A stretch of 64,000 nucleotides of DNA, from contig NZ_KB891263.1 in NCBI RefSeq assembly GCF_000373365.1, forward strand, positions 148,093-212,092, read 5' to 3'. The notes below the pieces were generated by a model that saw nothing but the letters and a program-made list of their open reading frames with translations, had not been told where the DNA came from and searched no databases. The translations under genes were made by a program, and so were the position numbers. Positions 13,963 through 46,619 of this stretch are shown one piece after another. The DNA comes from Parafrankia discariae (GTDB lineage: Bacteria; Actinomycetota; Actinomycetes; Frankiales; Frankiaceae). Every line of letters starts with the position of its first letter. The first letter of the stretch is position 1.

Positions 13963-13994
13963 GGCAAATGACGATCCCAGGCAGGAGGACCGCG

Positions 13995-17878: not shown

Positions 17879-17888
17879 GGAGATAACG

Positions 17889-20946: not shown

Positions 20947-20950
20947 GGGT

Positions 20951-27146: not shown

Positions 27147-27311
27147 ATGACTGACATCGTCAGGCTGGTCGAGTCGATCGATGATGTTCCCACTGTGGAG
27201 GAAACCGATGTGATCCTCGAGGAGCTGCGTCGGCTCCCGCGGACCCCGGAGAACATCAAACTGATGGACGACCTTCTTGAGTTTCGGTCACTACTCGGCG
27301 CGGCGGAATGA
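27147..27311 (+). CDS. Small acidic helical protein, 54 aa, unknown
   Basis: ATG with GGGAGAGG about eight bases upstream. The sequence is strongly acidic and predicted helical (VEETDVILEELRRLP, then NIKLMDDLLEFRSLLG), with no Cys, no membrane segment and no leader-cleavage motif that I recognise. Good codon usage and a clear ribosome-binding site support a real gene. It is divergent from the PAS gene and shares its regulatory region, so it may belong to the same regulon. Confidence 0.6.
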   Translation: MTDIVRLVESIDDVPTVEETDVILEELRRLPRTPENIKLMDDLLEFRSLLGAAE

Positions 27312-27751: not shown

Positions 27752-28080
27752 TTTCTTTGGATCCCCTTCTCGGTGGTCGTTTTCCTGACGCGCCTGAAGG
27801 CGCGCAGCGAACGCTACCCCAGCTGGTTCGGATGGCGTTGAAGCGCTGCCGGAATGGGAACTCAAGGCCGTGCTTGGGATGTCTGTCGCCGAATGGGCCG
27901 CGGAATCTGGAATGCGCCCCGATCGGGGATCGAAAAAGGTGTGCGAGGGAGTGAATAGCCGTCATCTCGGTCGCACCGGCGGCCGGGTGAAATGCGGGCG
28001 CCGCCGCCGGCCCTCCGGTTTCGCCCCGGCTGGCCGGAGCCGCCGGGCGTGCCGGAGCCGTCGCGCCTGTCGGAGCCGGG
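27752..28080. other. Intergenic region with short imperfect repeats
   Basis: 329 bp between the AraC gene and the CsbD-like gene, both minus strand. At 28033-28076 the word CGGAGCCG recurs three times at about 18-bp spacing. Plus-strand frames here are Arg-rich shadows. No gene seen. Confidence 0.4.
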
Positions 28081-28953: not shown

Positions 28954-29235
28954 GGTCGAGAGTGTACAAACGGGGCCCGTTGTGGTCTACCGGTCATCGT
29001 CGCGCGCCGGAAAACGATCATCGCGGCCGACGGCCGCTCCGGAGGCGCAGGTCGGCCGCCTGCTTCCGGGCGCGATGTTGATGTTGGCCGTTTGGGTTGG
29101 TTATCTGGCCGTAGATGCAGAGACGGTCACGGCCGCAAAGCGTACAAGTATGGGGAAGTCGAAAGGCGCGATCACGGCTCCCGCTGATTCGACGCGCGCC
29201 GATGGCTTCCCGATTCGGCGGTCGAGGAGACAGAT
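28954..29235. promoter_or_regulatory. Divergent AraC/exporter control region
   Basis: 282 bp. It contains an imperfect palindrome at about 28967-28983 (ACAA-A-CGGG-G-CCCG-TTGT) thirteen bases from the AraC start, and an AT-richer stretch at 29085-29175 that is a plausible exporter promoter. No gene seen. Confidence 0.4.
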
Positions 29236-29412
29236 ATGAACATCGACGACCCGGTCCTGGGGGCCGTTACCGGCCCGGTGGCCGAGGCACCAGACCTGTT
29301 ACGGAGAAACCGGCAGGCCAAACAGGCCCGGCCGTATCCGCGGTGGCAGGAGGAAAGGGAACCCACACGCGGCGCACCGGTGATTCACACCGCCGGGCGG
29401 AATACGCCGTGA
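29236..29412 (+). CDS. 58-aa ORF translationally coupled to ABC exporter
   Basis: ATG with a strong GAGGAGA six bases upstream. The TGA overlaps the exporter GTG (CCGTGA), so coupling is near certain if the ORF is translated. The peptide begins MNIDDPVLGAVTGPVAEAPD, has no Cys, and has a basic, aromatic-containing core (KQARPYPRWQEERE). It contains one TTA codon (29299-29301), rare in such genomes and a possible bldA control point. It could be a secreted or modified peptide exported by the adjacent transporter, or a leader ORF that gates exporter translation. I recognise no family. Confidence 0.5.
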   Translation: MNIDDPVLGAVTGPVAEAPDLLRRNRQAKQARPYPRWQEEREPTRGAPVIHTAGRNTP

Positions 29413-31166
29413 ACGCGCCGGCGGTCTCCGATTCCACCGGTCAGACGCACACGGCCGCGTCGATCCTGCGGCGGGCGAGAAGGGGCCAGCTGCGCCATCT
29501 CGGCGGCTCGTCGTTCTTCCTGTCGTGCCACCAGGTCGCCGAGGCGCTCGTGCCGGTCTCGATCGGCCTCGCCGTCGACCGTGCCGTCGCGACCGGCGAC
29601 GGCGCGTCCATGCTGCGCTGGCTGGCGGCGGTCCTCGGGCTCTTCGTGGTGTTGACCTGCGCGATGAGGTGGGGTTTCCGGGCGAACCTGCGGGCCACCC
29701 AGGGGGCCGGTCACGACCTGCGGATGCTGTTGGCGGAGCGGGTTCTCGACCCACGCGGCTCCGCCGGGGCGGAGCGGATGCCCGGTGAGCTCGTCTCCCT
29801 GGCGACCGGCGACGCGCTGAAGGCCGGCATGCTCAACTACGCCACCGCGATGGCCATCTCCGGTTTCGCCGGGGTCGGCGTGGCGGTGGTCGCCCTCGCC
29901 CGGTTCTCCCTTCCGCTCACCGCCCTCGTGACCGCGGGCTCGGTGCTGCTGCTGGTGATCACACACGTGCTCGGCCGGCCGCTGGAGCAGCGCAGCGCGG
30001 CGGAACGCGCGAAGATGGCGGCGGCGACCGGCCTGGCCGCGGATCTGATCGCCGGCCTGCGGGTCCTCAAGGGCTTCGGTGGCGAACGTCCCGCCGTCCG
30101 GCGCTACCGGGCGGCCAGCCGGGAGGCGCTGGGGGCTACCCTGCGCTCGGCGGCCGTGGAGTCGACCGTACGGGCGGTGGCCGTCGTGCTGGCCGGTGGT
30201 CTGCTCGCCGCCGTGACCCTCGTGGCCGGGCGGCTGGCCGCCGGCGGGTCGATCAGCATCGGCGCGCTGATCACCGCGGTCGGCCTGGCGCAGTTCCTGG
30301 TCGATCCCCTCAACCGGATCACCGGCTTCGGTTCGCAGCGCGCGCAGTCACTGGCCTCGGCCGGCCGCATCGCCGCGATCCTCAACGCCCCCCACGCGGT
30401 CGGCGGCACCCGGCAGGCCACAGAGGCCACAGAGGCCGCGCAGGCCACCGGGGCCGCGGCGGCCACAGGGGGCCGGCCCGGGCGCCTGCGCTTCGAGGGC
30501 TTCTCGGCCGGCACCATCCACGGCCTCGACTTGGAGGTGGCGGCGGGCGAGTTCGTCGGCATCGTCGCCGCCGACCCGAAAGAGGCGGCGGCCCTGCTGG
30601 CCGTCCTGGCCCGCGACGCCGACCCCGAGACCGGAACCGTCCTGCTCGACGGCGAGTCCGTCGCGCGGCTGCATCCCGACGAGACCCGCTCCGTCGTCCT
30701 GGTGGCCCCGCACGACGCAGAGCTGTTCGAGGGGACGGTGGTCACCAACATCCGTTCCGCGGCGCCCGGGGTGGAGCTCGGCCCGGTGGTCACGGCGGCG
30801 GCGCTCGACGACCTGGAGGAGGTGCTCAGCGACGGCCTGGAGACGCGGCTCCTGCACGGTGGGGTGTCGCTGTCCGGCGGTCAGCGCCAGCGGGTCGCCC
30901 TCGCCCGCGCCCTGGCGGCGGACGCCCCCGTGCTGGTGCTGCACGAGCCGACGACCGCGGTGGACTCGCTCACCGAGCTGAGGATCACGCAGGGCGTCCG
31001 GCAGCTGCGCGACGGCGCGAGCACGGTCTGTGTGACCTCGAGCCCCGGCGTGCTGTCGTTCTGCGACCGCGTCGTGGTGCTCGACGGCGGTGTGATCACG
31101 ACCGAGGGGACCCATGAGGAACTCGTCGGATCGCACCCCCGCTACCGCGAGCTGGTCCTCGCATGA
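29409..31166 (+). CDS. ABC exporter half-transporter with degenerate ATP site (subunit A)
   Basis: 585 aa from GTG 29409. Type IV exporter transmembrane domain (about residues 20-320, six helices), then a nucleotide-binding domain. Walker A is lost (FVGIVAADPKEAAALL in place of GxxGxGKST). Walker B reads VLVLHEPTT, with His replacing the catalytic-region Asp/Glu pattern. The H-loop His is missing (VTSSPG). The signature LSGGQRQR is perfect. It can therefore contribute a signature but not hydrolyse ATP itself. It pairs with subunit B, whose start overlaps its stop (GCATGAG). Confidence 0.9.
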   Translation: MNAPAVSDSTGQTHTAASILRRARRGQLRHLGGSSFFLSCHQVAEALVPVSIGLAVDRAVATGDGASMLRWLAAVLGLFVVLTCAMRWGFRANLRATQGAGHDLRMLLAERVLDPRGSAGAERMPGELVSLATGDALKAGMLNYATAMAISGFAGVGVAVVALARFSLPLTALVTAGSVLLLVITHVLGRPLEQRSAAERAKMAAATGLAADLIAGLRVLKGFGGERPAVRRYRAASREALGATLRSAAVESTVRAVAVVLAGGLLAAVTLVAGRLAAGGSISIGALITAVGLAQFLVDPLNRITGFGSQRAQSLASAGRIAAILNAPHAVGGTRQATEATEAAQATGAAAATGGRPGRLRFEGFSAGTIHGLDLEVAAGEFVGIVAADPKEAAALLAVLARDADPETGTVLLDGESVARLHPDETRSVVLVAPHDAELFEGTVVTNIRSAAPGVELGPVVTAAALDDLEEVLSDGLETRLLHGGVSLSGGQRQRVALARALAADAPVLVLHEPTTAVDSLTELRITQGVRQLRDGASTVCVTSSPGVLSFCDRVVVLDGGVITTEGTHEELVGSHPRYRELVLA

Positions 31167-33013
31167 GGCGCCGGCCCGAGCGAAAGGACGGTAGGGCCAT
31201 CAGCGCCACACCCGGGCCCGACGACGGCCTCCTCCCGAAGGCGGGGGCGGGGGAGACCTGGCGCTACGCGCTGCGCCTGCTCCGACCGCGCTGGTATCTC
31301 GCGGTGCTCACGGTCCTGGCGCTGTCGGTCGGCGCGGCCGTCCAGCTGGTCACCCCGCGTGCCCTCGGGTGGGTGATCGACGCGGCGATCGAGGGTGACC
31401 GGGGGGCGATGGTCTGGCCGGTCCAGGTCCTGGTGCTGGTCGCGGTCGCCACGGGCGTCTTCCAGGTGCTGACCAGGACGCTGATCGCGTTCGTCGCCGA
31501 GCCCGTGCTGGCGACGCTGCGGGAGGAGGTGGTCGAGCGGGCGCTGCACCTGCCCTCGGGCGCGGTGGAGCGCAGCGGTGCCGGTGACCTCGTGGCCCGG
31601 ATCAGCGGCGACGTCGAGGTCGTGACGACGGCGATCCGCAACATCCTGCCGACGCTGGCCATGTCCGTGTTCCTGGTGTGGATGACGGCGGTCGGCCTGG
31701 CGGTCATCGACTGGCGCTTCGCCGTCGTCGCGCTGCTGGCCGTGCCGACGGACCTCTACGCGTTGCGGTGGTACCTGCGCAGATCGGGCCCGGTGTTCGC
31801 CGCCCAGCGGGTGGCCGAGGGCGCCCGCGCCCAGCAGCTGCTCGACTCGGTCGGCGGCGCGGACACCGTCCGGGCCTTCCGGCTCGGTCCCGACCACCTC
31901 CGGCTGATGGCCGGGCGCTCGGAGGAGGCGATGGACTGCGCCTTCCGGGCGATGCACTTCCGGACACGTTTCTGGGGCCGGATGCATCTGTCCGAGGCCA
32001 TCGGCGTGGCGGCCGTCCTGGTCGCCGGCTTCTACCTGGTCCGGGGCGGATCGGTGACCGTCGGCGCGGCCACGGCCGCGGCGTTCTACTTCAGCCGCCT
32101 GTTCGAACCGGTCAACATGGTGCTGATGATGATCGACATGGTGCAGGAGGCGGGCGCGGCGCTGTCCCGTCTGGTCGGTGTCGCCGGTGTGCCGCTGCCG
32201 GAGCAGCGGGAGGAGACGGTCCTCACCGAGCCGTCGATCGACCTGCGCGACGTCCGGTTCGCCTACGGGGCCGGCCACGAGGTGCTGCACGGCGTCGACC
32301 TCGCCGTCCCGGCCGGGGAACGCCTCGCGGTGGTCGGTGCCAGTGGCGCCGGCAAGACCACGCTCGCCAAGCTCGTCGCCGGGCTCCACCCGCCGGCGTC
32401 CGGCGAGCTGCGGCTCGGCGGCCAGCCGGTCGACCGCTTCGGCCCGGACGAGCTGCGCCGGTCGGTGGGCCTGATCACCCAGGAGGTCCATGTGTTCGCC
32501 GGGCCGCTGGTCGAGGATCTCCGGCTGGCCCGGCCGGAGGCCACCGAGGCGGAGCTCGAGGGGGCACTGGAGCGGGCGGGCGCGCTGGAGTGGGTCACCG
32601 CGCTGCCGTCCGGGATCCGGACCGTCGTGGGCAAGGGCGGGCACCGGCTCACCCCGACGCAGGCGCAGGAGCTCGCCCTCGCGCGCATCCTGCTCGTCGA
32701 CGCGCCGATCGTCATCCTCGACGAGGCCACCGCCGAGGCGGGCAGCGCCGGGGCCAGGCGGCTGGAGCTCGCCGCCGAGCGCTCGCTCAGCGGCCGCACC
32801 GTCCTGCTGGTCGCCCACCGGTTGACCCAGGCGGCGGCGGCCGACCGTGTCCTGGTCCTCGACCGGGGCCGGGTCGTGGAGAGCGGCTCGCACGACGACC
32901 TGGTGACCGCGGGTGGGCACTACGCGCGGATGTGGTCGGCCTGGTCGTCGAACGGCGGCCTGGCCGGTCGCGGCGCCCTCCCCGGCGTGGCCGGACAGGC
33001 CACGCCGGGGTGA
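31163..33013 (+). CDS. ABC exporter half-transporter with active ATP site (subunit B)
   Basis: 616 aa. N-terminal six-helix domain (about residues 40-330). NBD with intact Walker A (VGASGAGKTTLAKL), Walker B and catalytic Glu (VILDEATAE) and H-loop (VAHRLTQ), but a degenerate signature (LTPTQAQELALARI). Combined with subunit A this gives one complete composite ATP site and one dead site, the asymmetric arrangement known for heterodimeric exporters. The substrate is unknown; candidates are the product of the adjacent accessory genes or the 58-residue peptide. Tail-to-tail with the P450 gene, 21 bp apart. Confidence 0.92.
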   Translation: MRRRPERKDGRAISATPGPDDGLLPKAGAGETWRYALRLLRPRWYLAVLTVLALSVGAAVQLVTPRALGWVIDAAIEGDRGAMVWPVQVLVLVAVATGVFQVLTRTLIAFVAEPVLATLREEVVERALHLPSGAVERSGAGDLVARISGDVEVVTTAIRNILPTLAMSVFLVWMTAVGLAVIDWRFAVVALLAVPTDLYALRWYLRRSGPVFAAQRVAEGARAQQLLDSVGGADTVRAFRLGPDHLRLMAGRSEEAMDCAFRAMHFRTRFWGRMHLSEAIGVAAVLVAGFYLVRGGSVTVGAATAAAFYFSRLFEPVNMVLMMIDMVQEAGAALSRLVGVAGVPLPEQREETVLTEPSIDLRDVRFAYGAGHEVLHGVDLAVPAGERLAVVGASGAGKTTLAKLVAGLHPPASGELRLGGQPVDRFGPDELRRSVGLITQEVHVFAGPLVEDLRLARPEATEAELEGALERAGALEWVTALPSGIRTVVGKGGHRLTPTQAQELALARILLVDAPIVILDEATAEAGSAGARRLELAAERSLSGRTVLLVAHRLTQAAAADRVLVLDRGRVVESGSHDDLVTAGGHYARMWSAWSSNGGLAGRGALPGVAGQATPG

Positions 33014-34664: not shown

Positions 34665-36173
34665 CTAGGGCGCCGTGTGGGCGAGCACTCCGTCGATGAT
34701 CGTGGCCGCGACGTGGGCGGCGTCGGGGTCGGCCAGCGCGTCGTCCAGCGGCGTTCGCAGCAGGCACAGGTCCGCGGGCAGACCCGGGTGCAGCCGGCGG
34801 GGGCGGGCCGGAGCGTCGGGGCGGCCGAGGAACAGATCGAGCGCGGTCCGCCCGTCGACCCGTTCCGCCGGTCCGAGCACCCGCCCGGACGCCGTCCGCC
34901 GCTCGCGGGCGGCCCGGACGGCCCGCCACGGGTCCGGATGGCCGAAGGGCGCGTCGGTACCGCCCGCCACCGCGATCCCCGCGGCCAACAGCGACCGGCA
35001 GGGATAGAGCCAGTCGAGGTCGTCCGGATCGACCTCGGCGAGATAGGCGTCCCCGCGCTCGGCGACGAAGTTCGGCTGGGTGACCACGGTCAGTCCGGCG
35101 GCGCCGATCAGCGCGGCCAGCTCCGGCGGGACGACCGCGCCGTGCTCGATCCGGTCGGTGCCGCCCGGCGGCGGCGGGCCGGCGGCGGCGATCGCGGCGA
35201 GGGCCACCACGAGCTGGACTCGGGTCACGCAGTGCACGGCGACCGGGATGCCGGCCCGGCGGGCTCGCCGGACCCGCCGCGCGAGCTCGTCCGGCGATGG
35301 CAGGTTCATGTCATCCAGCATGATCTTCGCCGGGCCGGGTGAGATCCGGTCCGGGAACGCGGCCCCGCCGGCCCCGCCGGGTTCGCCCGGTCCACCGGGT
35401 TCACCTGACCCGCCCGGTCCGTCGTCGAGGGGAAGCATCAGCGTCAGACGCTGCGGCAGCGCGCCCGAGGCGACGGCGTCGCCGAGCGCGGCGGCGTCGG
35501 ACGGCCGGCGTTGCGGCGTGGCGTCGGTGAAGCCGGTGACCCCGGTGGCGAGGGCGGCCCGGCCCACCGCGCCCAGATCGGCCGGCACCCGCGGGACCCG
35601 GCCGGCCAGCCAGCCGTCGAGCCGCCACAGCCGCCCCGTGGGAACCGCGTCGGGCGTGCGCTCGACGCCCGCGACATCGAGGAAGGACTCCGGGCCCAGG
35701 CCCAGCGCGCGCAGACCGGCCGAGTTGAGCACCCACAGCGCGCCGCCCCGGTGCTGCACCCTGGCCGGGACGTCGCCGGTCAGCGCGTCCAGCGCCACCC
35801 GGTCGAGGTCGCCGGCGACGGCCGGGTGGTAGCCGACCCCGCGCACCCAGCCGCCGGCCGTCCCGGTGCGCGCCGCGGCGGCCGCCGTCCGCAGCCGGCT
35901 CGCGAAATCCCGTGGGCCGCTGATCTCCGGCGGTCCCAGCACGACCGAGGCCGCGGCCGCGGCCAGCGACATCAGATGGATGTGGTGATCATGCAGGCCG
36001 GGGAGCAGGGCCCCGCCGGCGGCGTCGAGTTCGTCCTCGCCGCGCCGCCGGGCGAGGCGCCGCCCGGGCGGCCCGATCTCGGTGACGACCCCGCCGGTGA
36101 TCCGGACGTCCACCAGCCCGCCCGCCGGCGGCCCGTCGCGGCACAGGGCGGCCTCGGCGCGTCTGACCAGCAC
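34665..36173 (-). CDS. Amidohydrolase family 3 (YtcJ-like) protein
   Basis: 502 aa from GTG with AGAGGTGG upstream. Metal-dependent hydrolase: HxH in GLHDHHIHLMSLA, later His in PVAVHCVT and RIEHGAVV, and the catalytic Asp in VAGGTDAPFGHPDPW. The insertion at about residues 260-275 is a Gly/Pro-rich loop of GEPGG units. Family members hydrolyse amides, formamides or similar bonds. Head-to-head with the crotonase gene. Confidence 0.88.
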   Translation of the reverse strand: MLVRRAEAALCRDGPPAGGLVDVRITGGVVTEIGPPGRRLARRRGEDELDAAGGALLPGLHDHHIHLMSLAAAAASVVLGPPEISGPRDFASRLRTAAAAARTGTAGGWVRGVGYHPAVAGDLDRVALDALTGDVPARVQHRGGALWVLNSAGLRALGLGPESFLDVAGVERTPDAVPTGRLWRLDGWLAGRVPRVPADLGAVGRAALATGVTGFTDATPQRRPSDAAALGDAVASGALPQRLTLMLPLDDGPGGSGEPGGPGEPGGAGGAAFPDRISPGPAKIMLDDMNLPSPDELARRVRRARRAGIPVAVHCVTRVQLVVALAAIAAAGPPPPGGTDRIEHGAVVPPELAALIGAAGLTVVTQPNFVAERGDAYLAEVDPDDLDWLYPCRSLLAAGIAVAGGTDAPFGHPDPWRAVRAARERRTASGRVLGPAERVDGRTALDLFLGRPDAPARPRRLHPGLPADLCLLRTPLDDALADPDAAHVAATIIDGVLAHTAP

Positions 36174-36259: not shown

Positions 36260-37441
36260 GTGTGCTCCGTGGATGTTCGTCAGGCGCAGACCGTCCCGGA
36301 TGTCGAGGTCCTGGAGCCGGAGGACGCGCTGCTCCTGCTGCGCACCGACCCGGAGATGTTCGCCGCGCACACCGGACGGCCGCTGCTGGCCGTGCGCGTG
36401 CGCGGCCCGCTGGCGGTCGAGGTCGGGGCGCTCGCCCGCTGGCTGCCGTGCGTGCTGGTGGGCGTCGCGCCGGACCTCTCCGACGTCCCCCCGGGCATCG
36501 GGTCGGCCGGTTACGACGTGCTGCTGACCGGCGAGGCCGCGCCGCCCGCCCCGTGGGTCGGCCCGCCGCGGCCGGGAGACGGGCCCGCGGCCGCCCTCGG
36601 CGCGATCGCCGCGATGACCCGCGCCGTCCCCGGCGCGTGCGTGGCCTTCACCCAGCTGGTGCGGTACTCGGCGGGGATCGACGTCCGCGACGCGGTGATC
36701 GCCGAGTCGTTCACCTACTCGACGTTGCAGGCCGGCCCCGAGTTCGCCGCCTGGCTCGCCGGGCACCGGGCCACCCGGGAGCGCCGCGCGGCCCGGACCG
36801 CCGCCGCGCCGCCCGTGCGCGCGGCGCGGGCTGAGCGGGCTGAGTCGACTCAGCCGGCCGACTCGGCCGAGCCGGCGGTTCTCGTCGAGCGGGACGGCGC
36901 CGAGCTGTGGGTCGTGCTGAACCGGCCGCGGGTGCACAACGCGGTGAGCCGCGACCTGCGGGACGGCCTCGCCGGCGCGTTCGCGCTGGCCGGGGCCGAC
37001 CCGACCGTCGCCGAGGTGCGGCTGCGGGGGGCGGGCCGTTCGTTCTGCAGCGGGGGCGACCTCGGCGAGTTCGGCACGCTGCCCGACCCGGCCTGCGCCC
37101 ACGCGGTGCGGACCACCCGCAGCATCCCGCTGTCGCTGCTGCGCTGCGCGCGCCCGGTCACCGCGTACGTGCACGGGACCTGTGTGGGGGCCGGAGTGGA
37201 GATCCCGGCCTTCGCCCGGCGGGTGGTCGCCGATCCGGCGACCACCTTCCGGCTGCCCGAGCTGGCGATGGGCCTGGTGCCCGGCGCTGGTGGGACGTCC
37301 AGTGTCGTGCGCAGGGTCGGTCGGGAGCGCACCGCCTTCCTGTCACTGACCGGCTGGCCGCTGGACGCCGCCACCGCGGCGGCCTGGGGCCTGGTCGACG
37401 AGGTCCGCCCGGTGCGCGGGGATGCCCGCCCTCCGGTCTGA
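36260..37441 (+). CDS. Double crotonase protein: degenerate N-half, enoyl-CoA hydratase/isomerase C-half
   Basis: 393 aa (start GTG 36260 or 36269). The C-terminal half (about residues 205-393) is a standard crotonase: LWVVLNRPRVHNAVSRDLRD, oxyanion-hole segments GRSFCSGGDLGEF and THGTCVGAG-like YVHGTCVGAGVEIPAF, and PELAMGLVPGAGGTSS. The N-terminal half (residues 20-175) looks like a second, decayed crotonase-type domain (PLLAVRVRGPLAVEVGALAR, later ACVAFTQLVRYSAGIDVRDA) without the oxyanion motif. An Ala/Arg-rich linker joins them. CoA-thioester hydration or isomerisation is expected. Confidence 0.75.
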   Translation: MCSVDVRQAQTVPDVEVLEPEDALLLLRTDPEMFAAHTGRPLLAVRVRGPLAVEVGALARWLPCVLVGVAPDLSDVPPGIGSAGYDVLLTGEAAPPAPWVGPPRPGDGPAAALGAIAAMTRAVPGACVAFTQLVRYSAGIDVRDAVIAESFTYSTLQAGPEFAAWLAGHRATRERRAARTAAAPPVRAARAERAESTQPADSAEPAVLVERDGAELWVVLNRPRVHNAVSRDLRDGLAGAFALAGADPTVAEVRLRGAGRSFCSGGDLGEFGTLPDPACAHAVRTTRSIPLSLLRCARPVTAYVHGTCVGAGVEIPAFARRVVADPATTFRLPELAMGLVPGAGGTSSVVRRVGRERTAFLSLTGWPLDAATAAAWGLVDEVRPVRGDARPPV

Positions 37442-37998: not shown

Positions 37999-40239
37999 TC
38001 AGGACGCCATCGCCACCGCCGCGTCGAGGTTCGCCATGCCCACCCGGACCTGCGTGGCGCGCGGGTCGGCGAGATCCTCGAAGATCCGCAGCGCTCTGCT
38101 CCACGCCTGGTGGGCGGCGGTCGCGTCGGGCAGCCGCAGGTAGATCTGCCCCAGCAGGGCCAGGACGCGCGCGCTGGTGTGGCGGTCGCCGATCTCGCAG
38201 CAGACGGCCAGCGATCGGCGGCATGAAGCGGCCGCGTCGTCGTGGCTGCCGCAGGCCAGGTAGTCCTCGGCCAGGCTGAGGTGCGCCAGCCCGACCCCCC
38301 ACAGGTCACCGAGCTCGGCCAGGATGGCCGCGCTGTTGTGGTGGCAGGCGACCGCCCGCGCGGGGTGGCGCAGCCGGCGCAGCGCCCGCCCCAGCTCGAT
38401 CTGGGCCAGGGCGTAGCCCCACAGGTTCCCGGCCTCGGTGAAGATCTTCTCTGCCCGGCGGTGGTGGACGATCATCAGCTCCGGCCGGTGCACCAGGCCC
38501 AGGCCGAGCAGGCTGCACGCCTCGCCCCACTGGTCCGCCGTCTCCCGCCGGATCGCCGTCGCCCGCTCGATCAGGTCGACGGAGCGGTCGAGCAGGCGCA
38601 GGTCACGGTAGGCGAGACCGGCACTGAGCAGCAGCGCGGCCTCGCCGGAGCGGTCGCCGAGGTGCCGGGCGGAGGCGAGGCCGATCTGGGTGGTCGTGAT
38701 CCAGTCCGTCCAGCGCTTGCTGAGATGGAGATAGCCGGTCAGCCCGGCCGCCAGCTGCCAGGCGACCGTGTGCTCGGTCGCGCAGGCGGCGACCCGGACC
38801 GCGGTCACGAGGTTCGCGTGCTCGGCGGTGAACCAGGCCGACGCGTCCCGGAAGCCGCCGAACTCCTCCCGCGGCAGCTCGGCCGGGCCGGTACCGGGGA
38901 CCTGGCGCCGGCCGTAGGGGTGCAGCACGTTCTCGGCCCGGACCGCGGTCTGCTGATACCACCCGAGGAGCCGGGCCAGTGCCTCCTGCCGCTCGGCGTC
39001 GGTGTGCCGGGCCGGGGCCACCGTGCGCCCGAACACCCGTACCGCGGCGGGCAGCCGGTACCGGCCGGGCGCGGGGTTCTCCAGGAGCCGCAGATCGGTC
39101 AGGACGCTCAGCTCGCGCCGCGTGATCTCGGCCGGACGGCCCAGCATCGCGCCGGCCGCTCCCAACGGCAGGTCGTCCCCCTCCCACCCGCTCAGCAGGC
39201 GCAGCGCCCGCGCCGGGTCCGGATCAGTGGGGTCCCGTGGTTCCGGCAGGCTCTCGTACCGGCCGGCGACGCCGTGCCGGGTCTCGGCCGACGGGACGAC
39301 CACGGCGGACAGGACGGGCGCCGCAGGCCGGGCGGGCGCCGCGGGCGTGGCCGGCGGCGGCGGGGTGCCGACCGGCGGGGTTCCGGCCGTGCCCGGTGAG
39401 GTCCCGGAGGTGCCCGGCCGGGCCAGGCGCGCGTGGATGTCCGCCGTGGGCAGCGGATGCGGGTCGTCGGCCAGCATCAGGCCGTGCAGGCGCCGGAGGC
39501 CGTGGCCGGGGTCCACCCCGAGCTCGTCGCGCAGGATCCGGCCCACCTGCCGGTATGCCTCGAACGCCTCGGCCTTGCGCCCGCAGCGGTACAGGGCGCT
39601 GATCAGCAGCTCCCAGGGGTGCTCCCGGATCCTGGTCTCCTCGACGAGCCGCCGCAGACCGGGCAGGGCGATGTGATGATCGCCCAGCATCACCTGGGCG
39701 GTCAGGGCCAGCTCCCGCAGCCGCAGCCGGGCCTCGGCCAGGTGCGGCGTCTGCTCGCACCGCAGCCGCTCCACCGGCACGTCACAGAACGGTTCCCCGC
39801 GCCAGAGCGCCAGCGCCTCCCGGGCGTCGCGCCCGGCGTGGGCCCAGTCCGCCCGGTCGGCGGACTCCTGCGCCCGTCCGGCGAGATCGGCCAGTCTGAC
39901 CAGGTCGACCTCCAGCCCGTCCCGGAGCTCGATCACGTAGCCGGGGGAGCGGGTGACGATGCGCCCGCCCACCGCCGGCCCCAGCAGCCGGCGCAGCCGG
40001 CTGAGATAGTTCTCCAGCGTCTTCTTGGCGGACGGCGGTGGTGCGCCGTCCCAGAGCAGGTCGGCTAATCGGTCCGTCGAGACGATGGTGCCCGCGTCGA
40101 CCAGCAGCGCGGCCAGCACACCGCGTTGCTTCGCGGCGGAGACCGGGATCAGACGGTCGTGCCCGTCCCGGACCTCGAGCGGGCCGAGCAGCTGGAACCG
40201 GGGGATCCCGCCGACCTGGTTCGTTCCGGCTGTCTTCAT
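37999..40239 (-). CDS. AfsR/SARP-type regulator lacking a recognisable NB-ARC domain
   Basis: 746 aa from ATG 40237-40239, with GGAGGA five bases upstream. OmpR-like winged-helix DNA-binding domain (about residues 12-105: RFQLLGPLEVRDG, then SRLRRLLGPAVGGRIVTRSPGYV), BTAD (about 110-260: FEAYRQVGRILRDELGVDPG), a Pro/Ala linker, a winged-helix-like domain (about 350-420), and TPR repeats to the C-terminus. AfsR-type proteins normally carry a P-loop NB-ARC ATPase between BTAD and WHD; I find no P-loop here, so it may be a deletion derivative. SARPs activate biosynthetic operons through 11-bp direct repeats; candidate sites are at 26910 and 46719. Confidence 0.88.
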   Translation of the reverse strand: MKTAGTNQVGGIPRFQLLGPLEVRDGHDRLIPVSAAKQRGVLAALLVDAGTIVSTDRLADLLWDGAPPPSAKKTLENYLSRLRRLLGPAVGGRIVTRSPGYVIELRDGLEVDLVRLADLAGRAQESADRADWAHAGRDAREALALWRGEPFCDVPVERLRCEQTPHLAEARLRLRELALTAQVMLGDHHIALPGLRRLVEETRIREHPWELLISALYRCGRKAEAFEAYRQVGRILRDELGVDPGHGLRRLHGLMLADDPHPLPTADIHARLARPGTSGTSPGTAGTPPVGTPPPPATPAAPARPAAPVLSAVVVPSAETRHGVAGRYESLPEPRDPTDPDPARALRLLSGWEGDDLPLGAAGAMLGRPAEITRRELSVLTDLRLLENPAPGRYRLPAAVRVFGRTVAPARHTDAERQEALARLLGWYQQTAVRAENVLHPYGRRQVPGTGPAELPREEFGGFRDASAWFTAEHANLVTAVRVAACATEHTVAWQLAAGLTGYLHLSKRWTDWITTTQIGLASARHLGDRSGEAALLLSAGLAYRDLRLLDRSVDLIERATAIRRETADQWGEACSLLGLGLVHRPELMIVHHRRAEKIFTEAGNLWGYALAQIELGRALRRLRHPARAVACHHNSAAILAELGDLWGVGLAHLSLAEDYLACGSHDDAAASCRRSLAVCCEIGDRHTSARVLALLGQIYLRLPDATAAHQAWSRALRIFEDLADPRATQVRVGMANLDAAVAMAS

Positions 40240-40307
40240 CGGTCCTCCAGGACGATCGGATGATCTGACCGGGATGGATGCCCTCGGCGCGTCCCGGAGC
40301 GCCGCCC

Positions 40308-41633
40308 TCAGCACGGCAGGGTCTGCCAGGCTCCGGTTCCCCGGTCCGGCCGGCGGCGGACGCCGGCCGGGTGGGCGTCCGCGGGGCCCCGGGTGGCTCG
40401 GGCGTCCGCGGCGGCCCGGGTGGCTCGGGCGGCCCAGGTGGCGAGGTCCAGGGCGAACGGGGCGTCCCCGGTGCCGGCGACCTGCCTGCTGGCGGTCAGC
40501 AGCACTTCCGCCCAGGCCACGTCCTCCGGGCCCGCCCGCCCGGAGCGGGACTCCGCCGCGCCGGCGCGCAGTCGGTGCGCCTCCAGCGCCAGCCGCATCC
40601 CGGCCGCGGTGTCGACGGGCAGGACGGCCGCGGCGAGCCGCGTCAGCACCCCGCCGACATCGGCCGGTCCGGTACTCACCGTGACGCCTTCGTACCAGGT
40701 CAGGATGGTCCGGTCGGCCCGTGCGCGGACCAGTGCCGCGCGCAGCGGTTCGACGGGCCGGTCGGTGTCACCACAGCGGGGCACCGCGCGCAGCGCGTCC
40801 TCCAGGCCCGTGGTGAGATCCGGCGGGTTCGTCGAGGAGATCCGCCGCTCCAGGACGGTCGCGGGAACCGCGGCTCCGAGGTTGGCGGCCGCGGCCGCCA
40901 GGCGGGTGGCCCGGCCCTCCTCGCCGCCCCCGCGGGCCTGCCGGATGACGGCCGCCACCCGGAGGGCCCGGGCCAGATAGCCCAGGTGGGGGGAGGCATG
41001 GGGCAGCCCGGAGGCATGGGGCAGTCCGGGGTCGCCCGGGCCGGTCAGGTGGGCCAGGCGGGCCAGGCCGACCGGGCCGAGGCAGGTCAGATAGCCGCGC
41101 ACGGCGCGGTCGGCGGCCGCGACCGCCAGGTCAGGGTCCCCGAACGCGCCGAGGACGTCGCTGCCGAGCGCGAGGACCCGGGCCCCGTCCGGGCCGTCGG
41201 CCCCGTCGAGCGGGGGGCGGGCGCGCAGCGCCGCCTGCACGTCCGCCAGCGCGGACGCGCCGTGGCCCCGCTGGGCGTGCAGGACGGCGCGCCGTACGCG
41301 TACGTCGGCGATCCACCCGCCGGCCGCCGGCACCTGCCCGGCCAGGGTCGCGTACGCCCGCTCGCTGTCCTCGAGCGCCCGGATGGCCGCGCCGTCGCTG
41401 CCGGCCCGATACAGCAGGGCCGCCAGGTCGTACAGGACGCCACCGAGCAGCTGGGCTCCACGCACGTCCCCGGGGGATTGTGTGTGGAGTACGCGGGCCA
41501 GCCGGCCGGCGCTGGACTGGAACGCGACCGCCAGGTGTATGTCACCGCCGTGCCGCGCGCGTCGGGCGTCCCGCAGGAGCGCCGTTATCTGCTTTTCCCG
41601 CGGCGCCCGTCTTCGTTGGTGGTTCCGGAACAA
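40308..41633 (-). CDS. Helical-repeat (TPR-like) protein, unknown
   Basis: 441 aa, possible TTG start with GAGGA upstream. Ala/Arg/Leu-rich helical hairpins (VLYDLAALLYRAGSDGAAIR, ALADVQAALRARP) look like TPR repeats. There is no recognisable catalytic domain. Actinobacterial proteins of this type often accompany regulators with N-terminal HTH domains; here only a short basic N-terminus remains (NHQRRRAPREKQIT). Same strand as the SARP gene, 68 bp upstream of it, so the two are probably co-transcribed. Confidence 0.55.
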   Translation of the reverse strand: MFRNHQRRRAPREKQITALLRDARRARHGGDIHLAVAFQSSAGRLARVLHTQSPGDVRGAQLLGGVLYDLAALLYRAGSDGAAIRALEDSERAYATLAGQVPAAGGWIADVRVRRAVLHAQRGHGASALADVQAALRARPPLDGADGPDGARVLALGSDVLGAFGDPDLAVAAADRAVRGYLTCLGPVGLARLAHLTGPGDPGLPHASGLPHASPHLGYLARALRVAAVIRQARGGGEEGRATRLAAAAANLGAAVPATVLERRISSTNPPDLTTGLEDALRAVPRCGDTDRPVEPLRAALVRARADRTILTWYEGVTVSTGPADVGGVLTRLAAAVLPVDTAAGMRLALEAHRLRAGAAESRSGRAGPEDVAWAEVLLTASRQVAGTGDAPFALDLATWAARATRAAADARATRGPADAHPAGVRRRPDRGTGAWQTLPC

Positions 41634-42073: not shown

Positions 42074-43030
42074 TCAGGCCGTCACGATCGGTCGCGGGCC
42101 CGGTCCCTGGGCGAGGCCGGCCGCGGCCGGAGCGAGGTCGGCCGGGTCGGGAGCCAGATCGGCCGCCGCCGGCGGGGGCAGCATCGTCGTCAGCGCGCGC
42201 CGCGCGGTGTCGACGAGATGCTCCGTTCCCGGGCGGCACCCGGCCAGCGACGTGTCCAGCAGGCCCAGATCCTTCAGCAGCAGCGCCTTGAGCGCCTCGA
42301 GGGGCGGGCCACCGGGCGCACCGATCGGGGGGCCGCCCGCGATCGGGAGCGATCCCGTGCCCGCGCTGCACTCCTGCAGCGCCAGGCGCACCCCGTCCGG
42401 ATCGAGGCCCAGCGCGTCCGCCGCCCGCAGCGCCTCGACCGCGGCGCTGCGGTGCACGACGAACAGCGCGTTGTTCAGCAGCTTCACCAGCTGGGCGCTG
42501 CCGACACCCCCCGTGTACAGCACGGTCTTCGCGAAGAGGCCGAACACCGGCGCGCACCGGTCCACGTCCCGTCGGTCGCCGCCGGCCAGGACCACCAGCT
42601 GAAGGCCGGACCCGGTCCGCGCGCCGTTGCTGACCGGGGCGTCGAGGACGGAGATGCCCCGCGCGTCGGCCTGGGCGGCGAGATCGGTGCAGGTCTGCGG
42701 CGAGCAGGTGCTGTGGATGACGATGAGGCCCCCCGGTCGCATCGTCTCCAGCAGTCCGCCCGGCCCGGCCACGACCGCCCGGACATCCTCGTCGGCGAAG
42801 ACGCACACACTCGCGACGGTGACGCGGCGGCCCAGCTCGGCCAGCGACCCCGCGACGCGCGCCCCGGCGGTGCGGAACAGTTCGGTCCGGTCCTGCCGTG
42901 TGTCGTAGACGACCAGGGGCCGGCCGCCACGGACACAGTGCTCGACTATCTGGGCACCCTGGTGTCCGAGGCCGACGAAGCCGTAGGTCTCTTTGTCGAC
43001 GGGTGCGTCTCCCTGCTGGGCGGCCGGCAT
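42074..43030 (-). CDS. Beta-hydroxyacid dehydrogenase (3-hydroxyisobutyrate dehydrogenase-like)
   Basis: 318 aa from ATG 43028-43030, AGGAGA upstream. N-terminal Rossmann domain with GFVGLGHQGAQIVEH, substrate-binding DAPVSNGARTG and catalytic Lys in SAQLVKLLNNALFV. The family oxidises beta-hydroxyacids or reduces the semialdehydes; glyoxylate/imine reductases also belong here. Last gene of a four-gene minus-strand operon (gaps of 44, 52 and 130 bp), whose other members activate and oxidise an acyl substrate. The Pro/Ala-rich tail of 35 residues is extra to the family. Confidence 0.88.
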   Translation of the reverse strand: MPAAQQGDAPVDKETYGFVGLGHQGAQIVEHCVRGGRPLVVYDTRQDRTELFRTAGARVAGSLAELGRRVTVASVCVFADEDVRAVVAGPGGLLETMRPGGLIVIHSTCSPQTCTDLAAQADARGISVLDAPVSNGARTGSGLQLVVLAGGDRRDVDRCAPVFGLFAKTVLYTGGVGSAQLVKLLNNALFVVHRSAAVEALRAADALGLDPDGVRLALQECSAGTGSLPIAGGPPIGAPGGPPLEALKALLLKDLGLLDTSLAGCRPGTEHLVDTARRALTTMLPPPAAADLAPDPADLAPAAAGLAQGPGPRPIVTA

Positions 43031-43074
43031 CGCGTGCGTTCTCCTCAGTGGTGGAAGGATTCGGTCGGCGGAGG

Positions 43075-43770
43075 TCAGCGGGACTCGGTGTGGGAGCCGG
43101 TGCCGGCCCCGGGGGCGGACCCGGCCTGGACGAGGACGTCCCGCAGCGCCTCGGTGGCCGGCCGGGGGAGGTGTCGGCCGACCTCGTCGAGGACGTCCCG
43201 CAGGTCCGCCGCCGAGAGGTCCGCGGAGTCGAGGGCCGAGCGGACATGGTGGCGCAGCGGGTGGACGGTCCCCATGACCGCGCAGGCGCCGATCGAGATC
43301 AGGCGCCGCTCCCGCACGGTCAGGTCGGGCCGCCGCCACACCTGCCCGAACACGAACCCGAGAATCCCGGCCTGGTTGAACGGGGTGTCCCGGGGCGGGG
43401 CCTCCCGCAGGTTCACCACGCCGAACATGTCCTCGCCCAGCCGCAGCCGGGTCTCCCAGCTCTCCGGGCCCAGCGCCGCGGTGTCGAGCCGCGGCCAGGG
43501 CTCTACCGGTTCGCCCCGCTCGGAACGCAGGCGCGCCCACTGGCGCCGGACGACGGCCTCGGTCTCCGAACCGCGCGGCCAGCCGGCGTACACGGCGCAC
43601 TGCAGCACGAACTCCAGCAGCTCGGTCAGGGTGATCTCGTCCTGGTCGAGCACCTCGTACACCCGCTCGGCGAGGGTGTCGGTACGGCCGACCGCGGCGA
43701 GGCACACCAGCTCGACCCAGCGGCGGTCCTTCGTGCCGAGGCCGGCGCGGTCCGTTCCCGTGATGGTCAT
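43075..43770 (-). CDS. Carboxymuconolactone decarboxylase-like (two-domain) protein
   Basis: 231 aa. Two CMD/AhpD-like helical domains: residues about 20-95 (RRWVELVCLAAVGRTDTLAE, FVLQCAVYAGWPRG) and 125-205 (RERRLISIGACAVMGTVHPL, then RHHVRSALDSAD). No CxxC redox pair, so gamma-carboxymuconolactone decarboxylase-type rather than AhpD-type chemistry. Duplicated CMD proteins occur in aromatic catabolism and in some natural product loci. 52 bp downstream of the acyl-activating enzyme gene. Confidence 0.82.
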   Translation of the reverse strand: MTITGTDRAGLGTKDRRWVELVCLAAVGRTDTLAERVYEVLDQDEITLTELLEFVLQCAVYAGWPRGSETEAVVRRQWARLRSERGEPVEPWPRLDTAALGPESWETRLRLGEDMFGVVNLREAPPRDTPFNQAGILGFVFGQVWRRPDLTVRERRLISIGACAVMGTVHPLRHHVRSALDSADLSAADLRDVLDEVGRHLPRPATEALRDVLVQAGSAPGAGTGSHTESR

Positions 43771-43822
43771 GTCCGTCCGTCCGCTTCTGTTCGACGACTC
43801 CGGGACGCCCGAGCCGGGCGGG

Positions 43823-45685
43823 CTAGGCGGACGCGGCGGTGACCAGCGGCGCCGGGCGGTCGGCGAGCTTCAGGGCGACGGGACGGTTCGCCTCCGGCAC
43901 CGGAGCCGGCTCGGTCCGCTCCCGGAAAGCCCGCTTGAGTGTCTTGCCGGTGACCCCGATCGGGAACTCGCTCCACGCCACGACCTGCACCGTCACCAGC
44001 TGCTGGGCCGGGGTCAGCAGCGCGTTCAGCTCCTCGCGCAGCTGCGGACCGCCGGTCGTGAACCCGGGCCGCAGCGCCACCGCCGCGGCGGGCAGCTGGC
44101 TCCCGTCGGGCTGGCGGGCCGCGTACACGCAGGCGTCGAAGACAGCCGGGTGCCGGTGGACCCGCTCCTCGATGAGCAGGCTGTACACCTCGCCGGCCCG
44201 GGTGCGGATGACGTCGACCTCCCGGTCCAGCTGGACGACGTGACCACCGGACCAGCGGGCGACGTCACCGGTGAAGAACCAGCCGTCGCGGACGGCCTCG
44301 TAGGTGAGCGAGTGGTTGTTCCAGTAGGCCTCGAACAGGGTCCGGCCGCGGACCTCCAGCCGGCCCACCTCCCCTCGCGGCACGGGGCGGCCGTCCCGGG
44401 CGACCCGGACCGCGGGCCCGAAGGGCGTGGAGTGCCGCCGGCCGATCCGGCGCTCGTAACGGCGGGTGAACCGGGTGTAGTAGCGCAGCACCGACGGCGT
44501 GCCGACCTCGCTCGAACCCTGCGCGTCGAGATAGACCGAGCCGCCGATCGGCAGGCCGAGCCGGCGGAACGTGCCGCCCACCCGGACGCACGGCCTGATC
44601 ATCTCCTCGTGCGCGGCGTCGGCGGTGCTGGCCCAGAAGCGCATGGCCCGCAGGTCGTGCGCCGCGAGCGGGACCTCCTTGAGCTGGGTGTAGGTGATCG
44701 GGAAGCCGAAGAAGCCGGTGTAACGCCCGTCGGCCAGCTCCTGGACGGCCCGCGGCGCGTCGAAGTCACGGCCGGTCGCCCGTGTCCAGTGGGTCCGCAC
44801 CCCCAGCAGGAGCAGGCTGTGGAAGGTCATGATGACGGCCTGGTGGTTGTTCGGGACGGCGAAGTAGCCCTTGTCCCGCCGCGGTGAGACGTGGACGTAG
44901 CACAGCCAGCCGCGGACGGCCCGCGCCTGCGGCCCGTTGCGCAGGATCACCGCCTTGGGGAACCCGGTGGTGCCGGAGGTGTGCACCAGGTAGAGCGGCT
45001 CCCGCCGGCCACGGCGGACGGCGGGGGCGGGTCCGTCGACGCCGGCGAGCAGCTCCTCGATCCAGTGGACGGCGGGCACCCCGGCCCGGTCCAGGGCGGC
45101 GGACAGCTCCCGGACGTCGCTCTCGGGGGTGTCACCGACCCGCCCGACCAGGACGACCGTCGCCACCCCGTCCGGAGCGCCGCCCTCGCGCAGCACCCGC
45201 AGCAGCGTCGGGACGTCGGCCAGCAGGATCCGGGCGTCGACGTTGAGCAGGTAGGGCGCGACCTTGTCGGCGGCGAACGCGCCGTTCATCGGGCAGGCGA
45301 CCCCGCCGGCGCGCACCACCGCGAGATGAAGGAGGTGAATGTCGAAGTGGTTCTGCTTGAGAACGGCGACCCGCTGCCCGTGGCGCAGGCCGAGGGCGCA
45401 CAGCGCGGCGGCGAGCCGGCCGGCCGTGGCCTGGACGTCCCGCGCGGTCCAGCTGTCCGGGCGGGGCGCGGGCGTGCCACCGGGTCGGGGTATCGACCAC
45501 GAGCACGGCTCGTCACTGGTGAACAGGACCCGGCCGCGGTGGCGGCGGGCCGCCCGGTCGGGTATCCGCTCCAGCGACATCGGCCCCAGCGCGAGCCACA
45601 GCCGTCGGGGCAGCGCCACCGACTGGCAGACGAACGCCGCGTAGGCGGCGGCTACTCCCAGGACCACGGCTAAGACGACGATCAT
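43823..45685 (-). CDS. Membrane-anchored acyl-CoA/AMP synthetase (FATP/very-long-chain type)
   Basis: 620 aa from ATG 45683-45685, AGGAG six bases before. One N-terminal transmembrane helix (IVVLAVVLGVAAAYAAFVC), then an ANL-superfamily adenylation domain: P-loop YLVHTSGTTGFPKAV, then LQGSSEVG-like DAQGSSEVGTPSVL, DGWFFTGDVARW, and the C-terminal catalytic Lys in GVTGKTLKRAF. The N-terminal anchor and motif spacing resemble FATP/FadD6-type enzymes that activate long-chain acids. It presumably activates a hydrophobic carboxylic acid for the neighbouring enzymes. No carrier protein is encoded nearby. Confidence 0.88.
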   Translation of the reverse strand: MIVVLAVVLGVAAAYAAFVCQSVALPRRLWLALGPMSLERIPDRAARRHRGRVLFTSDEPCSWSIPRPGGTPAPRPDSWTARDVQATAGRLAAALCALGLRHGQRVAVLKQNHFDIHLLHLAVVRAGGVACPMNGAFAADKVAPYLLNVDARILLADVPTLLRVLREGGAPDGVATVVLVGRVGDTPESDVRELSAALDRAGVPAVHWIEELLAGVDGPAPAVRRGRREPLYLVHTSGTTGFPKAVILRNGPQARAVRGWLCYVHVSPRRDKGYFAVPNNHQAVIMTFHSLLLLGVRTHWTRATGRDFDAPRAVQELADGRYTGFFGFPITYTQLKEVPLAAHDLRAMRFWASTADAAHEEMIRPCVRVGGTFRRLGLPIGGSVYLDAQGSSEVGTPSVLRYYTRFTRRYERRIGRRHSTPFGPAVRVARDGRPVPRGEVGRLEVRGRTLFEAYWNNHSLTYEAVRDGWFFTGDVARWSGGHVVQLDREVDVIRTRAGEVYSLLIEERVHRHPAVFDACVYAARQPDGSQLPAAAVALRPGFTTGGPQLREELNALLTPAQQLVTVQVVAWSEFPIGVTGKTLKRAFRERTEPAPVPEANRPVALKLADRPAPLVTAASA

Positions 45686-45815
45686 CGGCGCTCCTGACGG
45701 CCGGAGGGTGAGATGACGAAGCGGTGCTTGCGGTATTCGTGATGTCTGTGGTTCTCGCGGTGTTGTCCGCGGTGTCACCGGGCCTGTGCGGCCTGTGCGG
45801 CCTGTGTGGCGGAGG

Positions 45816-46619
45816 TCAGGAGACCCGCTGGACGGGGCGCCGCTCCGGGAGGGAGTCGGCGATGCCGTCCCACAGCGCCGCGCGGGCCCGCAGGCAGTCC
45901 CGCACCACGGTGGCGCACTCCCGCCACCGCTCCCGGTCGTCGCCGGCCAGCGCCACCAGCATCTCCATCGCCATCGGGGTGTGCTGCTCCCCGTCGACGG
46001 CCACATGCCGGGACAGGTAGTCCCGGAACGTCGAGAAGCCGACGTTTCCGCCGAGGACCTGGGTGAACATCTCCGGGATCAGGTCCTCGCGCCCGAAGGC
46101 GAACGCCGCGGCCAGGGCGTGCGGCGGCGCGGAGCTCAGCAGGTCCCAGGTCAGACGCACGAACCCGGCGGCCGGGGCCGGCACCTGGGCGCGGGTGATC
46201 GCCTCCGGAACCGGGGTACCGGCGGCCAGTTCGGCGAGGAACCGCTCGATCGGCCCGGTGTCCGCCCCGGCCTCCGCCATCGCCTGGAGATACAACTCGA
46301 AATGGCTGATGTAGGAGTCGCCGTATTCGTCGCTCTCCTCGACGAGGACGATCTCGTTGATCAGACGGCGGCAGTCCCGGTGCGGGGTCGGCATCCACGG
46401 CACGTCGACACAGGTCAGCCTGCGCTGCAGGGTCTTCAGCAGGGACATGAAGTCCCAGACCGCGAACACGTGGCTGGTCATGAAGGTCGTGACGTCGTCC
46501 GGGGTCACCAGGCGGCCGTACACGACATGCGTGAGGACGTCGTCCCGGGCGGGGGTTATCTCCTCCTGGAGCCACCGGACCGACGGATGGGCGCCACCCC
46601 AGGAATAACGACTCGGCAC
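45816..46619 (-). CDS. DUF3050 family protein, probable heme-oxygenase-like diiron oxidase
   Basis: 267 aa. DUF3050 signatures: TSHVFAVWDFMSLLKTLQ, then VDVPWMPTP and INEIVLVEESDEYGD. Helical, with a putative ligand set of Glu/His in EESDEYGDSYISHFELYL and Asp/His in HVAVDGEQHTPMAMEM, the layout expected of heme-oxygenase-like diiron oxidases (HDO; for example UndA and BesC). Such enzymes cleave C-C bonds or desaturate acyl or amino-acid substrates. First gene of the operon, with candidate SARP repeats about 100-130 bp upstream. Confidence 0.8.
   Translation of the reverse strand: MPSRYSWGGAHPSVRWLQEEITPARDDVLTHVVYGRLVTPDDVTTFMTSHVFAVWDFMSLLKTLQRRLTCVDVPWMPTPHRDCRRLINEIVLVEESDEYGDSYISHFELYLQAMAEAGADTGPIERFLAELAAGTPVPEAITRAQVPAPAAGFVRLTWDLLSSAPPHALAAAFAFGREDLIPEMFTQVLGGNVGFSTFRDYLSRHVAVDGEQHTPMAMEMLVALAGDDRERWRECATVVRDCLRARAALWDGIADSLPERRPVQRVS

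Follow-up and report, generated by a model that had tools for sequence, protein, structure and literature searches.

A HamA-type diiron protein beside a predicted nitrite-activating ligase: a candidate N–N-bond biosynthetic cluster in Parafrankia discariae

Several described systems resemble parts of a gene cluster found in a 64,000-nucleotide stretch of the Parafrankia discariae genome (contig NZ_KB891263.1, positions 148,093 to 212,092; hereafter the window). HamA, PvfA and MgoB, from the fragin–valdiazen (ham), pvf and mgo systems, belong to the DUF3050 protein family and share its fold, and the ham system makes diazeniumdiolates. Excerpts of the literature on these systems state that MgoB matches DUF3050 (PMC3298696) and that PvfA–D are 39–53% identical to the Ham proteins (PMC10194917). 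Passages of PMC11659414 describe HamA/PvfA as non-essential for hydroxylamine intermediates and add that the enzymes forming the diazeniumdiolate ‘remain elusive’. Other pathways use nitrite-activating ANL enzymes (CreM, AvaA6, CmaA6, Tri17), and in the aspartate–nitrosuccinate (ANS) pathway the aspartate monooxygenase CreE and the nitrosuccinate lyase CreD supply the nitrite. The fatty-acid decarboxylase UndA has the same diiron (HDO) superfamily fold as DUF3050. Whereas the ham, pvf and mgo operons contain an AurF-type N-oxygenase and a nonribosomal peptide synthetase (NRPS), the Parafrankia cluster instead holds an ANL ligase, a CMD-family protein and a dehydrogenase beside its DUF3050 gene, and among the 16 proteins scanned at 25.3–46.6 kb of the window there is no Pfam domain of an AurF-type N-oxygenase or an NRPS. 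The best reading of the cluster is a variant of nitrite-dependent N–N biosynthesis, with a HamA-type diiron protein beside the ligase in the place of CreE/CreD.

The four genes of interest lie at 42074..46619, all on the minus strand. A DUF3050/HamA-type diiron protein of 267 residues is encoded at 45816..46619 (−) with a GTG start (Pfam PF11251, 297.1 bits against a cut-off of 22.2; Haem_oxygenas_2, 32.9 bits). It is followed after 130 bases by a 620-residue ANL adenylating enzyme at 43823..45685 (−), with a predicted N-terminal membrane helix (AMP-binding, 124.3 bits; AMP-binding_C, 28.8 bits), which sequence kinship, tree and profile suggest to be a nitrite-activating N–N ligase. A two-repeat CMD-family protein of 231 residues comes 52 bases later at 43075..43770 (−; Pfam CMD, 45.5 bits), and after another 44 bases a beta-hydroxyacid-dehydrogenase-like NAD(P) oxidoreductase of 318 residues at 42074..43030 (−; NAD_binding_2, 109.2 bits; NAD_binding_11, 33.7 bits). 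Placement, strand, spacing and families are as given in a first-pass annotation of the window made from the sequence alone; it also knew of no characterized pathway with this combination, and none was found in the open-licence literature that we searched. The order DUF3050–ligase–CMD–dehydrogenase is found in five of six genomes of the genus (G000, G412, G413, G414 and G416; G000 is the window’s own genome, 7.89 Mb in 194 contigs), so the gene set is more than chance. In the sixth, G415, no such ligase is found at E ≤ 1e-100 and the four-gene order is absent.

The top sequence matches of the ligase in the PDB are 8ztz, 9xb8 and 8tf7/9bq0. With a profile of 31 family sequences the scores are 157 bits for 8ztz, 152.6 for 9xb8, 144 for both 8tf7 and 9bq0, and 127 for FadD5. 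Entry 8ztz, like 9ijf, is titled ‘ATP-dependent diazotase CmaA6’; 9xb8 was named FadD by its depositors and falls inside the diazotase-type clade in our tree; 8TF7 and 9BQ0 are the N-nitrosylase Tri17, according to a part of PMC11705231. The nearest solved relatives are not characterized fatty-acid ligases: CmaA6, 9xb8 and Tri17 come first, with FadD5 next. For the trees, 93 sequences were collected and 12 without the A3 motif or the required length dropped, leaving 81 for FastTree; a reduced set of 58 was analyzed by maximum likelihood in IQ-TREE (LG+G4, 1000 ultrafast bootstraps), with 8 generic ligases as the only outgroup and neither proven FATP proteins nor CreM included. Bootstrap support was 100 each for the ligase family (28 sequences), for the diazotase-type clade (22) and for the two together against the generic ligases. 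FastTree support after re-rooting was 1.0 for family plus diazotase clade and 0.131 for the ligase family; we attribute the latter value to mislabelling on re-rooting and use the split-based IQ-TREE test instead.

Sequence features agree with this placement. The ANL catalytic residues in S237–K244, E393, D474, R488 and K581 are invariant in 31/31 family members, as are D356, A357 and H359 of a DAxHE-like motif that aligns with CmaA6 and Tri17 (by strict regular expression the motif is found in 86 of the 120 relatives listed, all at least 54% identical to the query), and a GSSE.G-like motif is common to the ligase and the diazotase-type enzymes. In contrast to those enzymes, the window ligase belongs to a separate, long-branch sister family with an N-terminal hydrophobic stretch: a hydrophobic helix is predicted at residues 2–22, a comparable stretch is present in 116 of the 120 listed relatives, and none was seen in the 6 diazotase-type enzymes examined, which suggests a lipophilic substrate. 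One relative (P0199, 66%) already carries the label ‘3-aminoavenalumate diazotase’ at its source, and some others are labelled ‘long-chain acyl-CoA synthetase’. Judging by sequence, the ligase is probably not a fatty-acid ligase, and chemistry on nitrogen fits it better than chemistry on a carboxyl group; by analogy with its relatives, there is a good likelihood that it activates nitrite.

Judged from residues and model, the DUF3050 protein bears the hallmarks of a HamA-type member of the diiron (HDO) proteins. Its predicted ligands (E94, H106, E178, H205, D209, H213) are invariant in 21/21 aligned proteins, and a loose E..H..E..HxxxDxxxH motif occurs in 121/121 listed homologues, from a family with at least 7992 of them. 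The spacing equals that of the CADD ligands given in an excerpt of PMC4520260. An AlphaFold2 model built on the 21-sequence alignment (predicted local distance difference test, pLDDT, 81.9) has as its top PDB match 9vwb, ‘HamA, a Heme-Oxygenase-Like Enzyme’, with template modelling (TM) scores of 0.73/0.79, 35% identity and E 1.5e-11. UndA is next (TM 0.58, E 3.2e-4, 12–14% identity), and other HDO proteins also match.

Among 35 Frankiaceae genomes, DUF3050 occurs at 13 places in 10 genomes and the ligase (E ≤ 1e-100) at 7 places in 7 genomes. In all seven of the latter (G000, G412, G413, G414, G416, G400 and G401) the ligase lies within 4.5 kb of a DUF3050 gene. The Frankia genome G400 has the order DUF3050–PAS–CMD–ligase, with a 34% relative of the dehydrogenase on the other side, and in G401 a contig ends near DUF3050 and neither the CMD nor the dehydrogenase gene was found on that contig. 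In a draw of 396 genomes across the phylum, the sole other genome with DUF3050 was G204 (2 copies), and the ligase was found in no other genome, the best three candidates being scored in the genomes shown. The first-pass annotation had suggested looking for a conserved neighborhood and modelling the DUF3050 protein, and it had named a lost linkage or a missing metal site as grounds for giving up its proposal; the linkage is kept, the probable HDO ligand set it had pointed out is present, and the model superposes on HamA first and UndA second. DUF3050 copies away from the cluster in G415 and G413 (loci L101 and L102) lie beside aminodeoxychorismate/anthranilate-synthase-like, methyltransferase-like and two AMP-binding genes (labelled by eye), the AMP-binding ligases falling outside the N–N clade in the tree. 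At another locus (L097:8379-12197) a 44% copy lies beside type III polyketide synthase-like and cupin-like genes, again labelled by eye, and an AMP-binding gene outside the N–N clade.

A 63%-identical orthologue of the ligase is held by a locus (L077) of a Nocardia metagenome-assembled genome. Nine genes run there on the same strand (2280-15095, +): an amidohydrolase, the ligase, two ABC proteins, a PAS protein, a CMD protein, a thioester-reductase-like short-chain dehydrogenase/reductase, a FAD-NAD(P)-binding (CreE-like) protein and a CreD-like lyase. On the nitrosuccinate-lyase model (cut-off 650) the lyase reaches 621.6 bits, against 398.8 for the next model, and the FAD protein (PF13454) is 48–52% identical to the FAD proteins that accompany CreD-like lyases at four diazotase-type loci. 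A genome-wide search found no DUF3050 in this genome, which has two NarG. Because its nitrite source is predictable, the Nocardia locus is the easier subject for work on the function of the ligase. Relatives of the ANS pathway thus stand beside the orthologue in the same nitrite-supply slot that we propose for DUF3050; in contrast, the Parafrankia window’s own genome has no nitrosuccinate lyase at E ≤ 1e-80, and DUF3050 is of another fold. At this threshold CreD is absent from 6 of the 7 cluster genomes, and a CreD of the organism’s own was rejected as the nitrite source.

DUF3050 is also paired with diazotase-type ligases that are remote from the window’s family. At E ≤ 1e-45, the AvaA6 model matched 12 places among 296 genomes of the class (in 11 genomes) and 41 places among 200 genomes of a single order (in 29 genomes); these counts are lower bounds, the best 4 to 6 candidates being scored in the genomes shown. 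Six places are common to both searches, leaving 47 distinct loci, viewed with up to 10 kb on each side and some cut by contig ends. DUF3050 is present at 13 of them, CreD with CreE at 5, CreE alone at 1 and neither partner at 28, while no locus has both DUF3050 and CreD/E. All 13 DUF3050-bearing loci come from one genus (g9), probably Micromonospora judging from the names of DUF3050 homologues, and are orthologous, representing 13 of the 15 loci whose ligase is at least 85% identical to that of L144. Twelve of the 15 g9 genomes have no lyase at E ≤ 1e-60; the other three have a lyase of 347–414 bits that may be a cycloisomerase, given that 3/14 control genomes also match at this threshold. Adding the 8 loci of the window’s ligase family (7 with DUF3050, 1 with CreD/E) gives 55 ligase loci, of which 20 have DUF3050, 7 have CreD and/or CreE and none has both, with CreE not searched in the seven Frankiaceae genomes. 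The g9 loci (L144:4799-14938, L145 and 11 sister loci) are a separate candidate N–N cluster, with small carrier-protein-like open reading frames (ORFs) and ketosynthase-like, VOC-like and PhyH-like genes (by eye) and a ligase of 506 bits on the AvaA6 model; at L144, DUF3050 directly follows the PhyH-like gene.

Taken together, we read the Parafrankia genes as an N–N-bond cluster in which a probably membrane-held ligase would activate nitrite and nitrosate a lipophilic substrate, with DUF3050 as the likely supplier of nitrite in place of CreE/CreD. By sequence and analogy, we give this reading as a whole slightly less than an even chance. Its parts differ: that the product has an N–N bond is likely, and that DUF3050 supplies the nitrite is possible but doubtful. 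In the first and least certain step, DUF3050 would oxidize an amine or amino acid and release nitrite or an equivalent. The ligase, if it acts as its relatives do, would then use ATP and nitrite to form nitrosyl-AMP and nitrosate an amine, hydroxylamine or hydrazone. Tailoring of the product or a precursor may fall to the dehydrogenase and the CMD protein, and, going by their families, two ABC proteins would serve export, with PAS, AraC and SARP proteins as putative regulators.

A number of observations weigh against this reading. In the tree the ligase family lies outside the diazotase clade, as its sister group, on a branch of 1.25 substitutions per site, so that a nitrite substrate is suggested by kinship and context. 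The ligase scores 143.2 bits on the AvaA6 model (NF058622, an equivalog model with a cut-off of 975), and it was rejected as a 3-aminoavenalumate diazotase equivalog of AvaA6. The generic PRK06187 model (long-chain acyl-CoA ligase) scores higher on it, at 167 bits, and also gives 147–190 for three diazotase-type enzymes. In a Foldseek search with the ligase model (pLDDT 81.8), CmaA6 has the highest TM score to the query (0.73) among the 50 matches listed, yet by E-value it ranks 9th, with luciferases and other ligases higher; the ligase fold alone is therefore not discriminating. The PRK06187 score is one of the points in favor of the pathway that the first-pass annotation had proposed, in which the ligase activates a free lipophilic acid and DUF3050 then cleaves or desaturates that acid, in the manner of UndA with lauric acid; the relation of the DUF3050 fold to UndA (TM 0.58), the predicted hydrophobic N-terminal helix of the ligase and an enoyl-CoA-hydratase-like gene in the cluster would also fit. 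HamA, however, is a much closer match to DUF3050 than UndA is (E 1.5e-11 versus 3.2e-4), and the partner ligase suggests chemistry on nitrogen. Activation of an acid leaves unexplained both the kinship of the ligase, nearest to CmaA6, 9xb8 and Tri17 in a clade with bootstrap 100, and the nitrous-acid run of CreE/CreD-like genes in Nocardia. We consider that pathway improbable.

On the linkage side, 6 of the 13 Frankiaceae DUF3050 copies have no such ligase nearby. Within the ligase’s own family, the link to CreD/E comes from a single locus, and the ligase occurs in no other of 301 genomes of the Nocardia family. Two g9 genomes with an orthologous ligase have no DUF3050 anywhere in the genome, and at an orthologous g9 locus without DUF3050 (L188) the rest of the locus is kept. 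DUF3050 and the ligase could be neighbors only in the way that biosynthesis genes gather, each contributing to a separate product or step without chemical connection; the many other contexts of DUF3050, from the 6 copies away from the ligase to the breadth of its family, and its absence from 2 of the 15 orthologous g9 loci would be expected on such an account. That the two genes stay within 4.5 kb of each other in 7/7 genomes while other cluster genes are rearranged, and that DUF3050 recurs beside a remote ligase clade, speaks against it, and we find a mere coincidence of neighbors very improbable.

Several of the contrary points concern nitrite itself. In G400 a nitrosuccinate-lyase match of 522 bits lies about 1 Mb from the cluster. 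NarG was found in none of the seven cluster genomes at E ≤ 1e-30 (4 of 14 control genomes match; assimilatory nitrate reductases were not searched), and a respiratory nitrate reductase was rejected as the nitrite source. The 28 of 47 diazotase-type loci with neither DUF3050 nor CreD/E include 8 in g9 (L148, L201–L206, L211). The exclusion between DUF3050 and CreD is weak, with a naive hypergeometric p of 0.033 for loci that are not independent and only two DUF3050-linked lineages, and we treat the pattern for CreD/E as suggestive only. Some HDO enzymes are N-oxygenases, a point in favor of the main rival to our reading: an N–N cluster in which DUF3050 acts on the substrate, by N-oxidation of an amine or by turning an N–N intermediate into an N-nitrosohydroxylamine or diazo group, and nitrite comes from assimilatory nitrate reduction, the environment or a plant host. 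In the excerpted text of PMC11705231, HDO proteins are listed among N–N-forming enzymes and HamA and HamE are hypothesized to act at the N–N-forming step; a passage of PMC10777205 counts 72 of 134 ava-type clusters without nitrous-acid genes, which, together with the 28 of 47 loci having neither partner, makes outside nitrite plausible. Action on the substrate leaves the non-overlap of DUF3050 and CreD in the 55 loci unexplained, though that pattern is weak, and the lack of NarG in all seven cluster genomes also counts against it. We regard this rival as unlikely, and continue to prefer DUF3050 as nitrite supplier to an N–N ligase.

The last contrary point comes from the CMD protein and the dehydrogenase, which are the least specific parts of the cluster. 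Among the best 80 of 111 CMD relatives, whose loci were examined, DUF3050 is present in L016–L018 only and a P0002-type ligase in L016–L018 and Nocardia L077; with so few such loci, the CMD protein is no specific marker of this gene set. A relative of the dehydrogenase (34–40%) is found at 17 of the 77 other CMD loci, without a P0002-type ligase or DUF3050 (L020, L021, L022, L027, L028, L032–L035, L038, L040, L042, L047, L060, L063, L067 and L079), and since the pair occurs elsewhere alone, it may be a module of its own. The duplication that had been noted in the CMD protein is clear in its relatives, which have two complete repeats; in the window protein Pfam finds a single CMD domain and the halves are incomplete. 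In the Parafrankia proteins the first repeat is without its first helix and the second without its end, as if the protein had been trimmed to a shifted repeat. AhpD-type CMD peroxidases have a CxxC active site; the window protein has no CxxC, with cysteines only at positions 23, 58 and 163, and was rejected as a peroxidase of this type. The dehydrogenase retains both domains and the GxGxxG, DAPVS, K..NN and KDLGL motifs, which are those of beta-hydroxyacid dehydrogenases.

The four genes, first taken as a complete unit, stand at one end of a conserved cluster that is larger, about 25.9–46.6 kb, and also has PAS, AraC, ABC and SARP genes, those for PAS, AraC and the two ABC proteins lying at 25.9–33.0 kb. 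Beyond the dehydrogenase gene come a 441-residue ORF without a Pfam match (40308..41633, −), conserved in Parafrankia clusters, and a SARP-type regulator with BTAD and TPR domains (37999..40314, −; Pfam, with conservation compared); the regulator is thus near the four genes as had been noted, with this ORF standing between it and the dehydrogenase. An enoyl-CoA hydratase/isomerase-family protein (36260..37441, +) and an Amidohydro_3 amidohydrolase (34665..36173, −) are likewise conserved in Parafrankia clusters, while a cytochrome P450 (33035..34276, −) is 95% identical in one other Parafrankia genome and 30% in Frankia G400 and is not part of the core. Two ABC transporter genes follow at 31163..33013 (+) and 29115..31166 (+, start codon uncertain), 61% and 57% identical, respectively, to their counterparts in the Nocardia run. 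The AraC-type regulator (28081..28953, −) has relatives of 49–50% identity at the Frankia G400 and Nocardia loci (Nocardia 50%), and the PAS-domain protein of 291 residues, with no recognized output domain (25891..26766, −), is 32–41% identical in two Frankia loci and the Nocardia locus (Nocardia 41%). Across Parafrankia genomes the gene order of the cluster varies and the genes remain together, which argues for a single functional unit. Between the PAS and AraC genes lie two small ORFs, at 27069-27311 (+) and 27482-27865 (−), 77% and 95% identical in P. soli; the latter matches no Pfam family.

The earlier statement that no ketosynthase is present is true of the four-gene operon; farther off in the window, at 16307-22159 (+), lies a type II polyketide synthase set with cyclases, a cupin, two ketosynthases, a ketoreductase and an ABM monooxygenase. 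At least two further Parafrankia genomes (L110, L111) keep this set close to the cluster; it was not seen at the examined Frankia G400 and Nocardia loci, and it could be separate from the cluster or supply its substrate. The segment 9824-14970 (+) holds a histidine kinase with a NIT (nitrate/nitrite sensing) domain, followed by three smaller genes that we take to resemble a conservon. NIT-domain kinases are widespread, so a tie to nitrite may be chance.

In a wider sense, DUF3050/HamA proteins may be nitrite-forming or nitroso-donating diiron enzymes that, as a single protein, replace the CreE/CreD pair and provide the second nitrogen for both actinobacterial adenylate-forming N–N ligases and diazeniumdiolates such as fragin, valdiazen and the mgo/pvf signals, Parafrankia pairing one with nitrite-activating ligases of a new, membrane-anchored family for a lipophilic N–N product; in this full form we hold the idea to be rather unlikely. 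The analysis points to a little-known ligase family, and if the ligase acts on nitrite, the label ‘long-chain acyl-CoA synthetase’ on its relatives would be a misannotation. The function of HamA and the origin of the second nitrogen of the diazeniumdiolate are open questions in the excerpted portions of PMC11659414 and PMC11705231. HamA-type proteins beside ligases of the nitrite-activating type, in two remote lineages and in genomes mostly without the known lyase, bring this down to a simple question: does DUF3050 make nitrite?

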